Shown here one piece after another: positions 51,950 through 60,521 of a stretch of DNA of 64,000 bases. Numbering within the stretch: the first letter of the stretch is position 1; every line of letters starts with the position of its first letter. Under the pieces are notes generated by a model. It had not been told where the DNA came from and did not search any database. It saw nothing but the letters and a program-made list of their open reading frames with translations. The stretch spans positions 682,001 to 746,000 of the forward strand of contig NZ_FOIJ01000003.1 in assembly GCF_900111745.1 (NCBI RefSeq), given 5' to 3'. Source of the DNA: Stigmatella erecta. GTDB lineage: Bacteria; Myxococcota; Myxococcia; Myxococcales; Myxococcaceae. A program made the translations under genes and the position numbers.

Positions 51950-52819
51950 TCAGCGCTTCACCGCGTCCAGGCGCTTCTTGGTCAGGCTCAGGTAGTTGGC
52001 GTCCAGGTCGATGCCCGTGTAGCGGCGGCCCAGCTTCAGCGCCGCCACGCCCGTGGTGCCGCTGCCGTTGAAGGGGTCCAACACGGTGGCGTCCTCGGGG
52101 GTGCTCGCCTCGATGATGCGCTCCAGCAGCGCCACCGGCTTCTGCGTGGGGTGGCTGCCGAAGGCCTTCTCCTCGCGGCGCGGGGCGATCTGCGTCCACA
52201 TCCGCCCGGAGCCATCCGCCGACAGCTCCTCCTCGCCGGTGCGCGGCAGGTTCCACACGTCGCGCATCTGCTTGCCGCCGTTCTCGCTCTTCATCCGCGA
52301 GTAATTGAACGTGTGCTGGAGCGTCTTCGCCGGCTTGGGCGAGGCCCAGATGAGCAGCTCCGTCGAGTGCGTGAAGTACCGGCACGACAGGTTCGGGCTG
52401 GCGTTGGGCTTGTACCAGGTGACGGTGTTCAGCAGCTTGAAGCCGAGCTTCTGCATGGCGAAGCCGACGTTGAAGATGACGTGCTGGGTGCCGCTCACCC
52501 ACAGCGTCCCGGTGGGCTTGAGCACGCGCTGGCACGCCTTGAGCCACTCGGTGGTGAAGCGGTGGTCCTCCTCCACCCCGCGCGACACGTCCCAGGCACC
52601 CTTGGCCACCGAGGCACGCTTGCCGCTCTTGCAGGTGAAGCCGCCGTTGGACAGGAAGTAGGGCGGATCCGCGAAGACGAGATCGAACTGCTGCTCGGGG
52701 AACTGGTTGAGCAGCGCCACGCTGTCGCCCTGGTACAGCTTGTACGCGTCTGACTTCGCGAACTCGCTCTGCTTCAGGGACTTCTCGACAAGCTTCAGCG
52801 CAGTGGCTTCCGCGGACAT
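51950..52819 (-). CDS. Orphan site-specific DNA methyltransferase (N4/N6 type, class beta)
   Basis: 289 residues. The catalytic DPPY (FADPPYFLSNGG) comes first and the SAM motif DPFNGSGTTG is near the C-terminus, with the target-recognition region between, which is the class-beta order. The body (TCKSGKRASVAKGAWD) resembles M.DpnA/MboII-type methylases. No restriction endonuclease is adjacent, so it may be a regulatory or defence-leftover methylase. Target sequence unknown. It lies upstream of nothing on its strand and is separated from rpmE by 200 bp. Confidence 0.85.
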   Translation of the reverse strand: MSAEATALKLVEKSLKQSEFAKSDAYKLYQGDSVALLNQFPEQQFDLVFADPPYFLSNGGFTCKSGKRASVAKGAWDVSRGVEEDHRFTTEWLKACQRVLKPTGTLWVSGTQHVIFNVGFAMQKLGFKLLNTVTWYKPNASPNLSCRYFTHSTELLIWASPKPAKTLQHTFNYSRMKSENGGKQMRDVWNLPRTGEEELSADGSGRMWTQIAPRREEKAFGSHPTQKPVALLERIIEASTPEDATVLDPFNGSGTTGVAALKLGRRYTGIDLDANYLSLTKKRLDAVKR

Positions 52820-53019: not shown

Positions 53020-53304
53020 CTACGCCTTGGCCTTGGCCTTCTTGGCATCCGCGGCCGGCGCCGCGGCGGCGGTGCCCGCGGCAGCAGCCTCTTCCTTGGC
53101 GGCGTTGTTGGCAGCGTACTTCTTGCGGAAGCGGTCGATGCGGCCCGCGGTGTCCACGAGCTTGTACTTGCCCGTGAAGAAGGGGTGGCAGTTCGAGCAG
53201 ATTTCCACCGCGAACGAGCCGCGCGTGGACTTGGTCTCGACGATGTTGCCGCAGGCACAGGTGATGCGCGAGGCCGGGTACACCGGGTGCATATCGGGCT
53301 TCAT
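53020..53304 (-). CDS. rpmE: 50S ribosomal protein L31 (zinc-binding form)
   Basis: 94 residues. [10 protein letters not shown] at the N-terminus, then zinc ligands in ITCACGN and [25 protein letters not shown] identify L31 of the Cys-containing (zinc) type. The C-terminal 25 residues are an Ala/Lys-rich tail ([10 protein letters not shown]) beyond the usual length, common in myxobacteria. The start at 53304 is chosen over an upstream frame at 53334, which adds residues not seen in L31. Confidence 0.95.
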
Positions 53305-53416: not shown

Positions 53417-54520
53417 CTAGTGGTGCGCCGAGCCGGGCGGCTCGATGCGTTCCACCAACTTCTGGACGGCGGGATCGGACGGCACGTCCGTCCCCAGCTG
53501 CTTGTAGGACAGTAGATGCGTGCGGCCCGCCCCCGTTGCGCCCTCCTGGACCGACTTCCGCAAGGCTGCCCGCCGGGTCTCGAAGGTGGCGAGGGTCTCC
53601 TCCAGCGCCCTGCGGGCCGTCTCGTCCTTCGTGGTCCCCAGCCGCTCCTTCGTCCGGGCGATGTTGGCCTCAATCATTTTCAGGCTTTCCTGGTCTCGCT
53701 GGGCGGTGGAGGCATCCGTGAAGGCGCCCTTGCCGTCCACGGACAGCTCCAGGCGGGCAAGCTGGCGCCCGCGCTCTCCCGGGGGAATCAGGGTGGCGAG
53801 CCCTTCCTTCTGGGCGATGCCCGGCCCACGCCCTTCGTGGGACTGGACGACGAAGTCGGCCCCCTCCGCGCCCTGGGCCAGCCGCCGGCTGGCGTCATAG
53901 GGCACCGCCGCCAGCACCACCACCACGTCCACCTTGTCCTTCTCGCGCAGGCGCTTGGCCTCGGCCAGGACGGCGGGCAGCACGGGCTTGCCCACGGCGC
54001 CCTGCAGGTCTCCCTCGGGCGAGGCGCCAATGACGCCCACCTTCAGCTTCCCCGCGGTGAGCACCGTGGAGGCCGGGAACACGGCCTTGCCGGCCTTGTC
54101 CACCAGGTTGGCGGACAGCAGCTTCAGCTTCTTCTCCTGGGCGCTCTTGCGGAGCCACTCCACGCCCAGCGGCAGGTCGCGCGCCCCCACGGCCATGGCC
54201 GCGGTGCCCAGGGCGTCCATCTGCTGCAAGAGGAACTCCGCGCGCGTCTTGTCGGCCGGGTCCCCACTGCTCACGGGACTCCGGAAGAGCGCATTGCCCG
54301 CATCCAACACGAGCACCGGCACGCCCTTCGCGCGCTCCTCGCCAATCGCCATCTTTCGTCTGGCCAGACCGCCAGACGGGTTGTGGCGTCAACCACAGGG
54401 GGCGATTTCGCCCCCATTGTCTCCCGTGAAGAGCAACACGGCCTTCTGGGGCGCCGCGCCCGCCCCCAGGGGGGACAGCCCCAACGCCAGCACGGCCAGC
54501 AGCAGCGAGGACAACCTCAT
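53417..54520 (-). CDS. Putative selenoprotein: metallophosphatase/UshA-like exported protein with in-frame UGA (Sec44)
   Basis: The gene is read as one 367-residue protein: signal peptide (MRLSSLLLAVLALGLSPLGAGA, start 54520), then APQKAVLLFTGDNGGEIAPCG, then an in-frame TGA at 54391-54389, then RHNPSGGLARRK in the same frame. The strand VLLFTGDNGGEIAPCGxxxxxxGGLARR is like metallophosphatase/5'-nucleotidase proteins that carry CGC before a GGLxRR segment; TGA replaces the second Cys (PCGU). The body resembles UshA's metallophosphatase half (VLVLDAGNALF, MAVGARDLPLG, VGVIGASPEG) but its metal-binding DxH and His residues are weak. A SECIS-type hairpin lies 10 nt past the TGA. Start overlaps the stop of the upstream TPR gene (ATGA). 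An ordinary premature stop with restart at 54352 is the alternative. Confidence 0.72.
54357..54378 (-). promoter_or_regulatory. SECIS-like stem-loop after the in-frame UGA
   Basis: On the minus strand CGTCTGGC (54378-54371), loop GGTCTG (54370-54365) and GCCAGACG (54364-54357) make a perfect 8-bp hairpin. The loop begins 18 nt after the UGA, within the bacterial SECIS range, and opens with GG. The loop GGTCTG equals the GGUCU apical sequence of the E. coli fdhF SECIS as I recall it. Confidence 0.7.
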
Positions 54521-55386
54521 TTGCTCACCTTCTTCGGGGCCGGCGCCGGGGCCGGCTTCTTCGCCTTGTCGAGCTCGGCCAGCTTCGCCTTCGCCTTCTT
54601 CGCCGCCTCGGCCTTCGGGTAGCTCTTGATGAGCTCCTCCAGGGCCAGCCGGGACTCGTCCTTCATCTTCAGCTTGGCGAAGCAATCCGAGGAGCGCAAG
54701 TAGGCTTCCGGGGCGGACGGGGACTTGGCGTGGTCCTGGATCACCTTGCCGTACTCGAAGAGGGCCTCGCGGCACTTGTCCTCGACGAAGTACGTCTCGC
54801 CCAGGCCGAAGTGCGCCTCGCCCGCCAGCGCGTCCTTGGCCCACTTCTTCAGGAAGTCCGTGTAGAGCTGGCGCGCCACCAGCGTGTCCCCGGCCTTGGC
54901 CTTCTCCTGCGCGAGCGCCAGGAACTCCTTCTTGTCCGTGGGCCGCTGGAGCGCCTCGGCCTGCTTCTTCGCCTCGGCCTCCTTCACCGCCGCCGAGCCC
55001 TGCAGCGCCAGCATCCGCTTCTCCGACTCCTCGGTGACGCGCGCCAGGGACGTCTCCAGCTCGGAGATTTTATAGACGTAGGTCTCCACCTGCCCGCGCA
55101 GCTGGGCCATGTCCTCCACCGTCTTCTGCAGCTGGATGCCGATGTCCGCGTCGTTGCGGCGCGAGGCCTTGTCCAGGCTCTCCAGCGCCTGGGTGACCTC
55201 GGCCACCTTCTCGTCGATGCGGGGCATGGTGGCGGCGAGCTGCTCGCGCGCCTGCTTCAGCTCCTCGGCCATCCGGGTGTTGTCGGCCCCCAGCCGGTCC
55301 ACCTTCGCCTCGAGCGCGCGGCCACGGTTGGCCGGGTAGAAGCATCCGGACAGGGTCAACAGCGACAGCAGGGCAAGCCTTCTCAT
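54517..55386 (-). CDS. CpoB/YbgF-like TPR lipoprotein
   Basis: 289 residues. Lipobox LTLSGC (Cys15), a coiled coil (about 25-125, LEAKVDRLGADNTRMAEELKQARE, like the CpoB trimer region), then a TPR region (about 155-260) with GEAHFGLGETYFVEDKCREALFEYGKV and AYLRSSDCFAKLKMKDESRLALEEL. The tail is Lys/Ala/Pro-rich. CpoB proteins act with Tol-Pal in outer-membrane constriction; here no tol genes are present. ATG 55386 is used; ATG 55398 is an alternative. It overlaps the candidate selenoprotein gene, so the two are probably one operon. Confidence 0.82.
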   Translation of the reverse strand: MRRLALLSLLTLSGCFYPANRGRALEAKVDRLGADNTRMAEELKQAREQLAATMPRIDEKVAEVTQALESLDKASRRNDADIGIQLQKTVEDMAQLRGQVETYVYKISELETSLARVTEESEKRMLALQGSAAVKEAEAKKQAEALQRPTDKKEFLALAQEKAKAGDTLVARQLYTDFLKKWAKDALAGEAHFGLGETYFVEDKCREALFEYGKVIQDHAKSPSAPEAYLRSSDCFAKLKMKDESRLALEELIKSYPKAEAAKKAKAKLAELDKAKKPAPAPAPKKVSK

Positions 55387-55461
55387 AGGGGGGCGCATCT
55401 TACGGGCAAATCCCTTCCGCGTCCGAGTCCTTCTCGCCCGGAGCCACGGGCCGCCCGCTGG

Positions 55462-56952
55462 CTAGCGGGGCCGTCCCTCCTCCATGCGCTCGACGGCCCG
55501 GGCACAGGCCACCTGGAGGCGGGCGGGGTTGAGGAAAAACGGCGTGGCCCGGGCCCTCCCCTCCTCCAGGGAGCGGAGCGCCCGGCGGTACTCACTGGCC
55601 GCCTCGGGGAACTCCTCGCGCAGCTCCAGCATCATCCCCAGCAGGTACCGCGCCGCGGCCAGCTCCGGATCCAGCGACAGGCAGCGCCGCAGGTACTCCT
55701 CCTTCTGCCCATCCGTGTCCCCCGCCCCCTCCAGAATCTGGGCGAACAGGGCATCGGCCTCGGCGAACATGAGCTCCTGCGAGAGCGGCTCGCTCCCCCC
55801 GCCCACCGCCGGAAAGCGGCCCGAGTCCCGCGCGGGCACCGCCCCCATGACGGCGAAGCGCCCCGAGTCCCGCGCGGGCACCGCCCCCATGACGGCGAAG
55901 CGCCCCGAGTCCCGCGTGGCCCCCGCGGACACGGGGCCGAAGCGCCCCGAGTCCCGGCGGCCCTCGGCCAGGAGCGCGGCGGAGTGGGCCCCGGAGGCGC
56001 TGGCCTCCCGGGCCCACTCCCCCACCGGGGCCGGGGACGCCACCACGGGGAAGCTTCCCGAGTCCCGCCGCCGCTCGGTGCGGGGCGGCGGCTCCGCCAG
56101 GAGGTTCCCGGAGGCGGGCAGCCGCCGGGGCGGCGCGGTGTGGATGTCGAACGTCCGGACGTAGAAGAACGCGTGCTCGCAGCGGATGATGCGCAGGCTG
56201 GGCGGCGCGTGGAGCAGCGGCTCGGCGGCGGAGAGCACCAGCGTGCCGCCCGGCGCGAGCCGCTCGGCCAGCGCCTCCACCACCCGGTCGAACGCCTCCG
56301 CGGTGAAGTAGATGAGGACGTTGCGGCAGAAGATGATGTCGAAGCCCTCGCCGTGGGCGGGGTACGGCGCCTCCATCAGGTTGTGGAGCTGGAAGAGCGA
56401 GCGCGCGCGCAGCTCCGGCACCAGCAGGGACCGGGCCCCTTCGGACAGGAAGTAGCGCTCGCGCACGGGGGCCGGCAGCCTTCGCACCTGCTCCGGGTGG
56501 AAGGTGAGCGTGCGCGCCCGGAGCAGCGCCTGCTCGGAGATGTCCGTGCCCAGCACCGTGCTGTTCGGGTCCGCCCCCGCCTCGTCGAGCAGGATGAGCA
56601 GCGTGGCCACCTCCTCGCCGGTGGCGCAGCCCGCGCTCCACACGCGCAGGGGCCGCCCGGGGGCGCGCCCCACCAGGGGCTCCAGCACGTGCGTGCGGAA
56701 GGAGGCGAGCTGGACTTCATCCCGGAACAGGTCCGTCTTGTGCACGGCGATGACGGAGATGAGCGAGGCCAGGTCCCCGGCGCCCGCGGGGGACTGGAGG
56801 TGCAGCAGGTACTGCTGCTCCGTGAGCACCCCCTGGAGCACCGCGAGCCGCTCGTCGAGCCGCCGGCGCTGCGTGCCACTCAGCGCCATGCCCGAGCGCG
56901 CGGAGATGAACGCGTGGAGCAGCGAAGCGGGCCGGGAAGGAGGCCCCTGCAT
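55462..56952 (-). CDS. cheR: CheR-type chemoreceptor methyltransferase with repeat linker and TPR tail
   Basis: SAM-dependent methylation of chemoreceptor glutamates. CheR N-terminal helices, then the SAM motif VWSAGCATGEEVATL (about residue 105) and FDIIFCRNVLIYF, which is the CheR signature. The catalytic domain ends near residue 270. A ~120-residue linker carries five RDSG[RS]F motifs, two with an exact 14-residue repeat, and a TPR-like tail (about 380-480) closes the protein, as in CheR-TPR fusions. Its start overlaps the cheB stop (TGATG). Confidence 0.88.
   Translation of the reverse strand: MQGPPSRPASLLHAFISARSGMALSGTQRRRLDERLAVLQGVLTEQQYLLHLQSPAGAGDLASLISVIAVHKTDLFRDEVQLASFRTHVLEPLVGRAPGRPLRVWSAGCATGEEVATLLILLDEAGADPNSTVLGTDISEQALLRARTLTFHPEQVRRLPAPVRERYFLSEGARSLLVPELRARSLFQLHNLMEAPYPAHGEGFDIIFCRNVLIYFTAEAFDRVVEALAERLAPGGTLVLSAAEPLLHAPPSLRIIRCEHAFFYVRTFDIHTAPPRRLPASGNLLAEPPPRTERRRDSGSFPVVASPAPVGEWAREASASGAHSAALLAEGRRDSGRFGPVSAGATRDSGRFAVMGAVPARDSGRFAVMGAVPARDSGRFPAVGGGSEPLSQELMFAEADALFAQILEGAGDTDGQKEEYLRRCLSLDPELAAARYLLGMMLELREEFPEAASEYRRALRSLEEGRARATPFFLNPARLQVACARAVERMEEGRPR
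55820..55903. repeat. 42-bp tandem duplication in the cheR linker
   Basis: Units 55820-55861 and 55862-55903 are identical, and the start of a third follows. Each encodes 14 residues (RDSGRFAVMGAVPA). Confidence 0.9.
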
Positions 56953-58004
56953 CAGCGCCCCACGGGGAGGGGCTCACCACGCGCCAGCTTCATCAACGAA
57001 GCGGCCACCTCGTCTCCATGGATGAGGTAGTCCACCGCGTTGCGCTCCACGGCCGCCCCCGGCATGCCGAACACCACGCAAGATTCCTCGTTCTGGGCCA
57101 CCGCGATGCCGCCGGCCTGCTTGATGGCATACATGCCCGCGGCCCCATCCTCGCCCATGCCGGTGAGGATGAGCCCCACGGCGCGCCGGCCGTAGGCCTT
57201 GGCCACGCTCTCCAGCAGCACCGTGCCCGAGGGCATGTGCCCGTCGCGCTCCTCGCCCTGGCGCAGCGCCACGCGGCCCCGGAAGGGAATCACCATGTGC
57301 GTGCCCGGCGGGGCCACCAGCACGTGGCCCGGCATCAGCAGCTCCCCGTCCTGGGCCAGCCGCACCTTCAGCCGCGAGGCATTGGCCAGCCAGCCCGCGA
57401 GCGACTCGGCGAAGGCGGCGTTGATGTGCTGGACGATGACGATGGGGGCCGGGAAGTCCGCGGGCAGCTCGGACAGGAACCGGTGAAGAATCTGCGGCCC
57501 GCCGGTGGAGGCGGCCACCGCCACCACCCCCATGTTCGCGGGGCCGAGCGCCGGGCCCGAGGGGCGCGCGGGCGTCACCTTGCGCGAGCTGCGCACGTGG
57601 CGAATCACCCGCACGGAGGACAGCAGCTTCAGCTCCTTGGCCAGGTTCCACGCCTCGAGCCCATCGTCGATGGAGGGCTTGACGCGCAGGCCCAGCGCCC
57701 CCAGCTCCAGCGCCCGGCACGTCAGCTCCGGCGCCTGCTGCCGCGGGTCCGCGGTGAGCACCAGGATGGGCGTGGGGCACTCGGCCATGATGTGCTCGAC
57801 CGCGGTGAGCCCGTCCATCACCGGCATGTCCACATCCATGGTGACGACGTTGGGGCGCAGCTCCTTGACGCGGGCCACGGCCTCCTTGCCGTCGGCGCAC
57901 ATGCCCACGACCTGCAGGTCCGGGTCCTGGTTCAGTGCTTCGCTGATGAGCTGTCGGCAGATGAGTGAGTCATCGACCACCAGCACCGACACTTTCTTGC
58001 CCAT
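56952..58004 (-). CDS. cheB: CheB protein-glutamate methylesterase
   Basis: Receiver (phospho-Asp57 in VVTMDVDMP) joined to the methylesterase domain with Ser166 in AASTGGP, His193 in VQHINAAF, and the catalytic Asp in [12 protein letters not shown]. 350 residues, normal. It demethylates or deamidates chemoreceptors and is activated by phosphorylation from the CheA of the operon. There is no CheW-only gene in the window. Confidence 0.94.
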
Positions 58005-58070
58005 TGCCTGTGCATACCCCGTGCGCGCTTCGGGAGTATACCCAATGCTCGCGCCACGCTCAGGGGAGCT

Positions 58071-60521
58071 TCACCCCAGTAACCGCTTCACCACATCCAC
58101 CAGGTCCTGACGGACCAAATCCCCCTTGGTGATGTAGCCATCCGCCCCCGCCGCCAACCCCCGCTGCCGGTCCTCCTCGCCTCCTCGGGTTGTGAGAATG
58201 ATGACTGGCAACCGGTTCAGGGTCTCGTGGCTCTTGAGCTGGCGGGTCAATTCCAGCCCATCCAATCCCGGCATTTCCAGGTCCGTCACCACCAGATCCG
58301 CCGGGGCGTGGGACAGGATGTGCAGCGCCTCGACGCCATCCGAGGCGGTGGTGATGTCATATCCGACCGCCTCCAGCAGGGCCGAGATGAGCTCCCGGGT
58401 CAGGGGTGAGTCATCCACGACCAGGATGCGGCGGCGCTGGGCCTCGGGGGCCCGGGCCACGGCGCGCGGCAGCCTCAGGGCCACGGAGCCCTGGGCACTG
58501 GCGGTGAGGTAGGCGGCCGACACCACCATCGCCAGCTTGCCGTCGGCCAGGGTGGTGGCGCCCGCGAGGTGGGCGAAGCGCCCCAGCAGGCCCCTCAGGG
58601 GCAGGATGGCCTGGACGCGCTCCTCCAGGACGCGCTCCACGGCCAGGGCGGCGGTGGCCCCCTGGCTGCGCACCACGAGCACCAGCTCCCCTTCGCTCGG
58701 GGACCGCTCCGGGGCCAGCCCCAGCACGGAGGAGAGGTGGGCGAAGGGCAGCACCCGGCCCTCCACATCCAGCGTGGGCCGCCCGGCCACCTCGCCGAGC
58801 TGGGCCAGATCCAACTTGAGCGCCTGGGAGACGTGGGTGGCGCTCAGCGCCAGCGTCTCCTGGCCCACCTTCACGAAGAGCAGGGGCGCCACCGTGAGGG
58901 AGACCGGGACGCGCACCTCGAAGATGGTGCCCACCCCCACCGCGGACACGACGCTCGCGTCGCCGCCCAGCCCCTGCACCGCGCTGCGCACGGCGTCCAA
59001 CCCCACACCCCGGCCCGACAGGTCCGTGGCCACCTCGCGGGAGGAGAAGCCGGAGAGGAAGACGAGATCCCTCGCCGCCGCATCGCTGAGCGCGCTCGCG
59101 GCCGTCTCGTCCAGGAAGCCCCGGCGCACCGCCACCCGGCGCAGCATGGCCGGATCCAACCCCATGCCGTCGTCCTCCACCCGCAGGACGATGCGGTTGC
59201 CCTCGCGCGTGGCGCGCAGCGTCAAACAGCCCTTGGGCCGCTTGCCCGCGGCGACGCGGTCCACGCGCGTCTCCAGGCCGTGGTCCAGCGCGTTGCGGAT
59301 GAGGTGCAAGAGCGGCTCCCGGAGCGCCTCCACCACGGCCCGGTCGGCGCGGGTGTCCTCGCCGTCCACCACCAGCTCCACCTCCTTGCCCAGCTCGCGC
59401 GCCAGGTCGCGCACCACGCGGGGATAGGGCTCGAAGAGCACCGAGAGCGGCAGCATGCGGATGCGGTGCACCTCCTCCACCGCTTGCCCCAGGTCCCGCA
59501 GCTCCTCGTTGGCCAGCAGCTTCGCCTCGCGGTGAAGCTCGGCCGCCAGCTCCTTGGCCTTGCCCAGGCGGGCCGCCAGCGCGGCGCCCACCGGGCCCAG
59601 GTCCTCGGCCTCGCGCGCCAGGAGCGTCAGCTCGCGCGTCAACTGGAGCCTTCGCGCGTTGGCCAGCTCCCGCCGGCGCGCCACGTGGGACAGGTTGGTG
59701 GCCGCGCTGGTGAGCAGGTCCAGGCTCTGCGCGTCGATGCGGATCGAGCCGTCCGCCCGGGCATCCTGCGAGCGCTGCGGCGTGGCCCGGGCCGGGGCCG
59801 GTTTGGAGGGGTCCGGCATCCGCGGAATCGTCTCCGCCACCAGGTGGGTGGCAGGCCCGGCGCCCGCGATGCTGGCGCTGGAGGACGGCTCGGGAAGGCC
59901 CTCGCCGGCGGGCAGGGGCACCGGCGTCCACAGCTTGCGCCCCGCGCCCCCCCGGGTCTCCCCGGGCCGGACCCCGTTGGCCGTCCGGGGCGTGGCCATC
60001 AGGGCGGCGCTCACCGGCACCGGGGGCGGGGTCGGCGTTCGCGGGGCCTGCGGCCGGGAGGGGGCCGCCGGGGCCGCGGCCACGGGCGGGGCCGCCGGGA
60101 GGGAGGCGTCCGGCACGGGCGGCACCGCCAGGAAGCGGCTCTGCTCGATGCGGGTGCGCTCCCGGAGCACGGCCACCAGCTTGGCCACCTCGGGGGAGCT
60201 GTCCGAGGCCAGCATTCCCGACAGGGCGATCACCGCATCGGAGGACTTCAGCAGCGCGTCGGCGGACTCGTGCGAGAAGGCGTACTGGGCGGGCTCGATG
60301 GCGCGCACCAGCTCCTCCATCTCGTGCACCAGGGTGTTGATGCGGTCGAAGCCCATCATCCGGGCCTCGCCCTTGAGGCCGTGGAGATCCCGGAGCACCT
60401 TGCGCCCCGTCTCCACATCGCCCCCGGACTCCAGCGTGAGGATGAAGGCGCTGATGCGCCCCAGCCGCTCCTCGACCAGGTCCCGGAACTTCTTCAGCAG
60501 CCGGTCACGCGGGGTCGTCAC
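58071..60521 (-). CDS. cheA: Hybrid CheA histidine kinase with C-terminal receiver
   Basis: 816 residues. HPt domain with phospho-accepting His47 (LRDLHGLKGEARMMG), Pro-rich linker (about 125-260), dimerisation and ATPase domain (HLIRNALDHGLE, VEDDGMGLD), CheW-like regulatory domain (about 550-680), then a receiver (RRILVVDDSPLTRELI; phospho-Asp in VVTDLEMPG). This CheA-REC arrangement is found in FrzE and other myxobacterial chemosensory kinases, where the receiver is part of output or phosphate sink. The start is GTG at 60521, overlapping the mcp stop (GTGA). Downstream cheB and cheR are the adaptation enzymes. Confidence 0.92.
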   Translation of the reverse strand: MTTPRDRLLKKFRDLVEERLGRISAFILTLESGGDVETGRKVLRDLHGLKGEARMMGFDRINTLVHEMEELVRAIEPAQYAFSHESADALLKSSDAVIALSGMLASDSSPEVAKLVAVLRERTRIEQSRFLAVPPVPDASLPAAPPVAAAPAAPSRPQAPRTPTPPPVPVSAALMATPRTANGVRPGETRGGAGRKLWTPVPLPAGEGLPEPSSSASIAGAGPATHLVAETIPRMPDPSKPAPARATPQRSQDARADGSIRIDAQSLDLLTSAATNLSHVARRRELANARRLQLTRELTLLAREAEDLGPVGAALAARLGKAKELAAELHREAKLLANEELRDLGQAVEEVHRIRMLPLSVLFEPYPRVVRDLARELGKEVELVVDGEDTRADRAVVEALREPLLHLIRNALDHGLETRVDRVAAGKRPKGCLTLRATREGNRIVLRVEDDGMGLDPAMLRRVAVRRGFLDETAASALSDAAARDLVFLSGFSSREVATDLSGRGVGLDAVRSAVQGLGGDASVVSAVGVGTIFEVRVPVSLTVAPLLFVKVGQETLALSATHVSQALKLDLAQLGEVAGRPTLDVEGRVLPFAHLSSVLGLAPERSPSEGELVLVVRSQGATAALAVERVLEERVQAILPLRGLLGRFAHLAGATTLADGKLAMVVSAAYLTASAQGSVALRLPRAVARAPEAQRRRILVVDDSPLTRELISALLEAVGYDITTASDGVEALHILSHAPADLVVTDLEMPGLDGLELTRQLKSHETLNRLPVIILTTRGGEEDRQRGLAAGADGYITKGDLVRQDLVDVVKRLLG

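Follow-up and report, generated by a model that had tools for sequence, protein, structure and literature searches.

A reading frame interrupted by a single TGA

What is a solitary TGA doing in a gene that otherwise reads from start to stop without a break? In the window considered here, which is the whole stretch of 64,000 nucleotides of Stigmatella erecta DNA that was analysed, an ATG (54518-54520, minus strand) opens a frame that closes at a TAG (53417-53419); re-reading it from end to end agreed with the original prediction that the segments 54520-54392 and 54388-53417 lie in one frame with the TGA alone between them. The product would comprise 367 amino acids before processing, counting a selenocysteine (Sec) at position 44; its N terminus looks, judged by eye, like a signal peptide, and the selenoprotein is probably exported. 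The table-11 list of open reading frames (ORFs) holds only a 311-aa ORF from the ATG at 54352, which is the truncated protein that standard gene calling had been expected to return.

53417-54520, minus strand: predicted UshA-like selenoprotein gene, an open frame with one TGA
54389-54391, minus strand: UGA codon 44, the proposed Sec codon

Could the TGA be a sequencing error? A match with one TGA recurs, among the matches listed, in 81 of the 96 genomes of the family, which rules an error out; beyond the copies that were read, the TGA in most of these 81 genomes is a stop counted by the search tool. The gene is found in all seven genomes of the genus, with one TGA in six and none in the seventh (G001). 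Four family genomes have only Cys copies among their close homologues, and the remaining ones, again among the matches listed, comprise one with a fragment that lacks the motif (G048) and ten counted as having no close homologue, of which one (G047) is better described as holding a contig-end fragment (89.8 bits, positions 239-370).

Wherever codon 44 was read, it takes one of two forms: TGA in 51 of 70 copies and Cys in 19, with nothing else (61 copies were found by motif, 49 with TGA and 12 with TGC; nine were found by tblastn, two with stops, both TGA, and seven with Cys). The Cys that the original prediction looked for in aligned homologues is thus present. Four of the Cys copies (L026, L083, L084, and L086) sit at the same locus beside a CpoB-like gene described below; the other 15 (L069-L082 and L085) are paralogues with no such neighbour within 1 kb, and these paralogues coexist with a Sec copy in several genomes. 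The 33 named loci, a set that overlaps the 70 copies, include 31 with TGA, one with TGC (paralogue L128), and one unread. The gene occurs across the Myxococcaceae, including Myxococcus xanthus, a model for development and predation, in which strain AM003 (L130) has TGA. Beyond the family, a match at 1e-12 is found in at least 139 of 195 genomes of the phylum, and other families contain additional TGA copies; 20 distant stretches from the phylum gave 14 TGA, four Cys, and two unread codons. Coding conservation on both sides of the in-frame UGA, a criterion for bacterial selenoproteins, is what these comparisons reveal. Among viral contigs, 24 stretches fit a pattern, and none encodes a relative. 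One stretch titled Comamonas sp. KCTC 72670 (L127, BNCN01000006.1) carries a locus of myxobacterial type in which the gene order is conserved; it is probably mislabelled.

Selenocysteine machinery and its loss

Does the genome have the means to read UGA as Sec? All four genes that the original prediction proposed to look for (selA, selB, selC, and selD) are present: tRNA-Sec (selC) scores 71.6 bits against a cut-off of 47 and has the anticodon TCA, and SelB (306.5 bits), SelA (570.3), and SelD (385.4) are all above their cut-offs. Given the conservation of the codon and this complete set of sel genes, UGA44 is very probably read as Sec, with a probability that we put at about 0.95.

The distribution of the machinery follows that of the codon, with exceptions on both sides. 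SelB is above its cut-off in 77 of the 81 TGA genomes (among the matches listed). SelA is present in three of the remaining four (G046, G014, and G093); in the last, G083 (87% complete), the UGA gene occurs with neither SelA nor SelB found. SelA was searched for in 12 of the 96 family genomes and in the window's own. Among the Cys-only genomes, G001, G019 (79% complete), and G050 have neither SelA nor SelB above cut-off, and G088 has both. The co-occurrence of SelB and TGA has a Fisher p of 1.8e-5 in a test that ignores phylogeny. SelB is also present in five of the ten genomes counted as having no close homologue; together with the Cys copy of G088, this suggests that the Sec machinery has other clients.

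One genome appears to have been caught after the event. G001, a two-contig genome of the window's own genus, has TGC in the gene; all that is left of its selA is a 137-bp remnant, and the flanks on either side are intact and align to those of G003 at 93-94% (L168 against L169). In its copy of the hairpin discussed below, the loop GGCTTG replaces GGTCTG, and the stem still forms seven of its eight pairs. The Myxococcaceae lineage can thus be viewed as a natural experiment in selenocysteine loss.

According to the available portion of a 2006 survey, every selenoproteome contained FdhA or SelD; the survey names Anaeromyxobacter once (PMC1794560). In the window's genome, neither SelD nor the sole FdhA-like match (271.5 bits, below cut-off) contains a UGA. 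An FdhA-type match with one TGA occurs in seven of the 96 family genomes, and the window's genome is not among them. A literature search of titles and abstract starts, which took in few subscription journals, returned no paper devoted to myxobacterial selenoproteins.

A hairpin downstream of the UGA

54357-54378, minus strand: SECIS hairpin, 8 bp, loop GGUCUG (54365-54370)

The SECIS loop of E. coli fdhF contains GGUCU, and the window's gene resembles the fdhF type in having a downstream hairpin with a GGUCU-containing loop. The hairpin (CGTCTGGC-GGTCTG-GCCAGACG) has a perfect 8-bp stem that begins 10 nt past the UGA and a loop that lies 18 nt past it; stem length, loop, and both spacings are exactly those first claimed. 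An Rfam search of the whole 64-kb window at gathering scores gave no matches, so the hairpin belongs to no Rfam family at that threshold.

Is this hairpin kept for its own sake, or does it merely fall out of the amino acids that it encodes? The 86-nt region analysed folds at -42 kcal/mol, as compared to -28.1 (sd 3.4) in dinucleotide shuffles (z -4.1; none of 200 shuffles is as stable). When amino acids are held fixed and codons are resampled with the codon usage of these genes, all eight stem pairs form in 1.8% of draws, whereas they form in 19 of 38 distinct family UGA genes. The mean number of pairs in these 38 genes is 7.18 of 8 (5.12 resampled); in 14 UGA genes from other families it is 7.0 (4.78 expected), and in 16 Cys genes it is 4.94 (4.51 expected).

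Synonymous sites tell the same story. Comparison of 33 shallow with 15 deep family members gives a background synonymous identity of 0.545 against 0.54 expected from codon usage, that is, these sites are about saturated; the SECIS codons +5, +6, +7, and +9 are nevertheless identical in all shallow-versus-deep comparisons in which the residue is the same. In the outer stem, codons +4, +10, and +11 have low synonymous identity (0.19-0.34), and the outermost pairs are not constant among deep members, so the conserved core of the SECIS amounts to 5-6 bp. In 48 UGA genes (L104, which is partial, was excluded from the synonymous test), the nine-codon window from +2 to +10 ranks first of 253 for synonymous constraint, and the window from +1 to +12 is 0.32 above expectation, as against 0.03 in 12 Cys genes. 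Codons that are rare in these genes (TCT, GGT, and AGA) are held at SECIS positions. Manual reading shows the stem to be fully re-paired in L090 and L104 and re-paired with a bulge in L095. None of the four Cys orthologues retains the GGTCTG loop, and their stems form 7, 3, 3, and 6 of the 8 pairs. Conservation of the hairpin beyond the needs of the protein is strongly supported by these comparisons.

If the UGA were a true stop, the locus would be a pseudogene, or the 311-aa ORF would be made separately as a cytoplasmic protein; the ORF that the standard list returns from ATG 54352 is what such a reading would lead one to expect. Against it stand the recurrence of a single stop in 81 of 96 genomes, in a frame that stays open to either side of it, the Cys at that codon in the other copies read, the synonymous constraint on the hairpin in UGA genes but not in the 12 Cys genes, and the failure to find SelA and SelB in three of the four Cys-only genomes. 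Recurrence and synonymous-site constraint lead us to reject a pseudogene or an ordinary stop, either of which is very unlikely here. Hairpins 3' of stop codons can, as is generally known, stimulate readthrough, and the UGA might accordingly be imagined to be decoded as Trp or Cys with the hairpin as a plain stimulator; however, the genome has all four sel genes, the non-TGA copies have Cys in 19 of 19 cases, and the GGUCU loop recurs in the hairpins of two family formate dehydrogenase genes that have an in-frame TGA (L163 in G087 and L164 in G018), which leaves this explanation with hardly any chance of being right. The preferred reading is that the GGUCUG-loop hairpin, 10 nt past the UGA, would recruit SelB with tRNA-Sec(UCA), which would decode UGA44 as Sec.

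An additional hairpin before the UGA

Two elements go beyond the original prediction. One is a hairpin before the UGA (H1), absent from that prediction; the other, considered further below, is a coupled lipoprotein of the CpoB/YbgF-like kind, in which a pair of Cys is conserved.

54398-54415, minus strand: upstream hairpin H1, GGGGGCG-AAAU-CGCCCCC
54379-54394, minus strand: H2, a tentative short stem, GGUUG/CAACC, that takes in the first two bases of the UGA

H1 ends 6 nt before the UGA and is an extra conserved hairpin by which the window's family differs from the fdhF-type SECIS of E. coli. Of the 38 distinct family UGA genes, 36 form all seven of its pairs, as compared to 2.5% expected from resampled codons; in the two exceptions (L091 and L101), manual reading suggests that the stem can pair again around a single bulge. 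H2 forms all five pairs in 31 of the 38 (4.9% expected from resampled codons); it appears in neither the computed minimum-energy fold nor the consensus fold. For the three stems taken together, four of 20 pairs have a change in both partners, where shuffles give 1.0, and one shuffle in 500 is as high; in control stems slid by -3 and -1 columns, double-change cells number 10 and 7 against 6 in the real structure, and the slid stems have far fewer paired cells than the true structure.

Is H1 a functional part or an accident of the peptide? It is quite possible that H1 is functional and may help decoding, and about as much can be said for its being a by-product of the GGE(I/V)AP peptide, of GC-rich codons, and of shared ancestry. 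Gly-Gly and Ala-Pro codons alone yield some of the pairs; a compensatory pair change is seen only once, in L087 (one of 37 distinct rows); and H1 is complete in just two of 14 UGA genes from other families (and in none of 16 Cys genes). Such an accident would hardly give 36 complete stems of 38, and the two Cys orthologues that keep the peptide GGEVAP (L083 and L084) form only 5 of 7 pairs (the four Cys orthologues form 6, 5, 5, and 4). The codons themselves point both ways: at Gly-8, Gly-7, Ala-4, and Pro-3, shallow-versus-deep identity is 0.87, 0.93, 0.86, and 1.0, well above the background of 0.545, but the Gly and Ala codons taken singly lie at the 89th-95th percentile of background codons and not beyond.

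H1 as a general feature of Sec insertion was considered and rejected: since it is complete in only two of the 14 UGA genes from other families, it is not generally needed. No H1-like hairpin precedes the UGA in the two readable formate dehydrogenase genes (of six).

If H1 is functional, how would it act? By the time the UGA is decoded, the ribosome would cover the stem or have passed it, so the role of H1 would fall before decoding. H1 may slow the approach of the ribosome, allowing the SECIS to refold and SelB to bind first. For E. coli, the available part of one paper discusses recruiting SelB early and refolding of the SECIS between one ribosome and the next (PMC4513850). Among the matches listed in a literature search, no title concerned a hairpin upstream of bacterial Sec codons. 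For bacterial Sec insertion, H1 is an upstream element that can be put to the test.

Protein family, fold, and proposed redox centre

54389-54400, minus strand: PCGU motif (Pro41-Cys42-Gly43-Sec44), the proposed redox centre, from alignment

To which family does the protein belong? An earlier reading is corrected here: the family is not new but is that of the UshA-like selenoproteins, which (COG0737, with a CxU motif) were in print by 2008, as the accessible text of that report indicates (PMC2398784), and which are also listed with CxU in the part of a 2026 review that was available (PMC13188914). Pfam gave nothing of weight for the selenoprotein (best E 0.95). The NCBIfam model NF041198 (UshA-like (seleno)protein) has a cut-off of 275 bits; the selenoprotein reaches 167.2 and aligns to model positions 15-374 of 519. 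The likeness consists of the PCG[U/C]...GGLARR motif, Cys or Sec at the CxU place, and a 5'-nucleotidase-like domain, and all 21 members that were scanned hit the model with E values no worse than 0.001; the differences are the missed cut-off and the lack of a full-length match, the C-terminal part being missing. NF049981 (UshA-like family 2; 39.2 bits, below its cut-off of 140) describes a related domain, but with a CxxU spacing, according to the same available part of the review (PMC13188914), rather than CxU. In short, the window protein shares motif, fold, and Sec position with UshA-like selenoproteins, while it falls below the cut-offs and lacks the cytochrome part. As it reaches neither NCBIfam cut-off, annotation that relies on these models may truncate it.

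The cytochrome part is seen in a Cys paralogue of the same genome (L010; G000:C2, 1402-2931, plus strand), a 509-aa protein with a PCGC metallophosphatase-like domain followed by a C-terminal cytochrome c554 domain (PF13435, E 1.1e-13) with several CxxCH motifs. It scores 242 bits against NF041198, also below cut-off, and its match continues into the cytochrome region, to position 518; the window protein is thus the cytochrome-less form.

An AlphaFold2 model built with 21 sequences (pLDDT 86.1, pTM 0.83) has the predicted fold of a 5'-nucleotidase N-terminal domain, with a best VIA Z of 31.5 (7d0v_A, rmsd 2.7, 272 aligned); E. coli UshA (1oie; Z 30.4, rmsd 2.6, 269 aligned) and SoxB (2wdd; Z 30.1, rmsd 2.3, 262 aligned) share it. 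Unlike 5'-nucleotidases of the UshA/CD73 type, the window protein has no C-terminal substrate domain (the UshA rows stop at residue 357-360 of 515-525); the model has a helical hairpin (271-328) after the core. In the alignment to 2z1a, residues are replaced at N76, A113/R114, and A205, which we take to be metal-ligand positions in 5'-nucleotidases, and the first ligand motif lies outside the alignment. Several of the dinuclear metal ligands of an active 5'-nucleotidase such as UshA are thus replaced, and the metallophosphatase-like domain with degenerate ligands that was first proposed holds up. The product would be a pseudo-phosphatase: a 5'-nucleotidase N-terminal fold deprived of several metal ligands and of the substrate-binding domain.

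What, then, might it do? C42, G43, and Cys/Sec44 are invariant in 21 aligned proteins; the motif of paralogue L128 reads HCGC. Neither the window protein nor 18 of 20 aligned relatives has a Cys beyond the C-G-C/U pair; L110 and L138 have one additional Cys each. Since Cys42 and Sec44 are the sole thiol and selenol residues, we favour a redox role over a metal one, and the Cys42-Gly-Sec44 pair may act as a redox centre; of the redox or metal role, other than nucleotidase activity, that was originally suggested, the redox half has gained and the metal half has become less attractive.

A candidate partner next door

54517-55398, minus strand: CpoB/YbgF-like TPR lipoprotein gene (TIGR02795, 78.7 bits, cut-off 90.1)
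55462-60521, minus strand: CheR-CheB-CheA genes, upstream, a conserved neighbourhood beside the selenoprotein gene at many named loci
53020-53295, minus strand: ribosomal protein L31 gene, downstream, a frequent neighbour at named loci

A gene for a CpoB/YbgF-like lipoprotein lies directly upstream of the selenoprotein gene at 32 of 33 named loci, and in the window its stop overlaps the selenoprotein start (ATGA). An in-frame RTGA near the start is found at all 31 loci scanned, in a loose test that paralogue L128 also passes. At 18 of the 20 loci L142-L161 no YbgF was recorded, which is uninformative as these have flanks of only 300 bases. In the TPR part of the lipoprotein, C209 is present in 32 of 33 sequences and C239 in 33 of 33; a second, overlapping set has them in 54 of 56 and 56 of 57, respectively. 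Neither has an equivalent in the aligned CpoB structure 6g5s.

The adjoining, overlapping gene and the conserved Cys pair of its product point to a redox partnership, in which the most likely job of the selenoprotein would be thiol-disulfide (selenenylsulfide) exchange in the envelope. That the lipoprotein is its substrate or partner is a tentative proposal, as the Cys pair could be structural instead. A literature search combining CpoB with disulfide, Tol-Pal, and TPR returned no papers.

A plausible alternative keeps the Sec and drops the CpoB-like partner: C-G-U would bind a metal, serve a haem protein, or reduce a small molecule. In its favour, the Cys paralogue carries a fused cytochrome c554 domain, so that electrons may flow from the metallophosphatase-like domain to a cytochrome; however, the window protein ends within NF041198 short of the cytochrome part, and the gene next to it encodes a CpoB-like protein with a Cys pair. 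Thiol-disulfide exchange remains our preferred job, with the lipoprotein as its tentative substrate or partner, and the lineage gives a lead to the function of the poorly understood UshA-like selenoproteins.

A broader proposal joins both ends of the argument: in this gene, SECIS and H1 would form a two-sided Sec element, in which H1 spaces ribosomes or permits early SelB loading, and the product would be a selenium-dependent redox regulator of a CpoB-like lipoprotein of the envelope in Myxococcaceae. As a whole, this is rather doubtful.

On the downstream side, the L31 gene is followed in the window by a gene for an N6/N4 DNA methyltransferase (51950-52819, minus strand), which matches the CcrM model NF050803 with 228 bits against a cut-off of 830.
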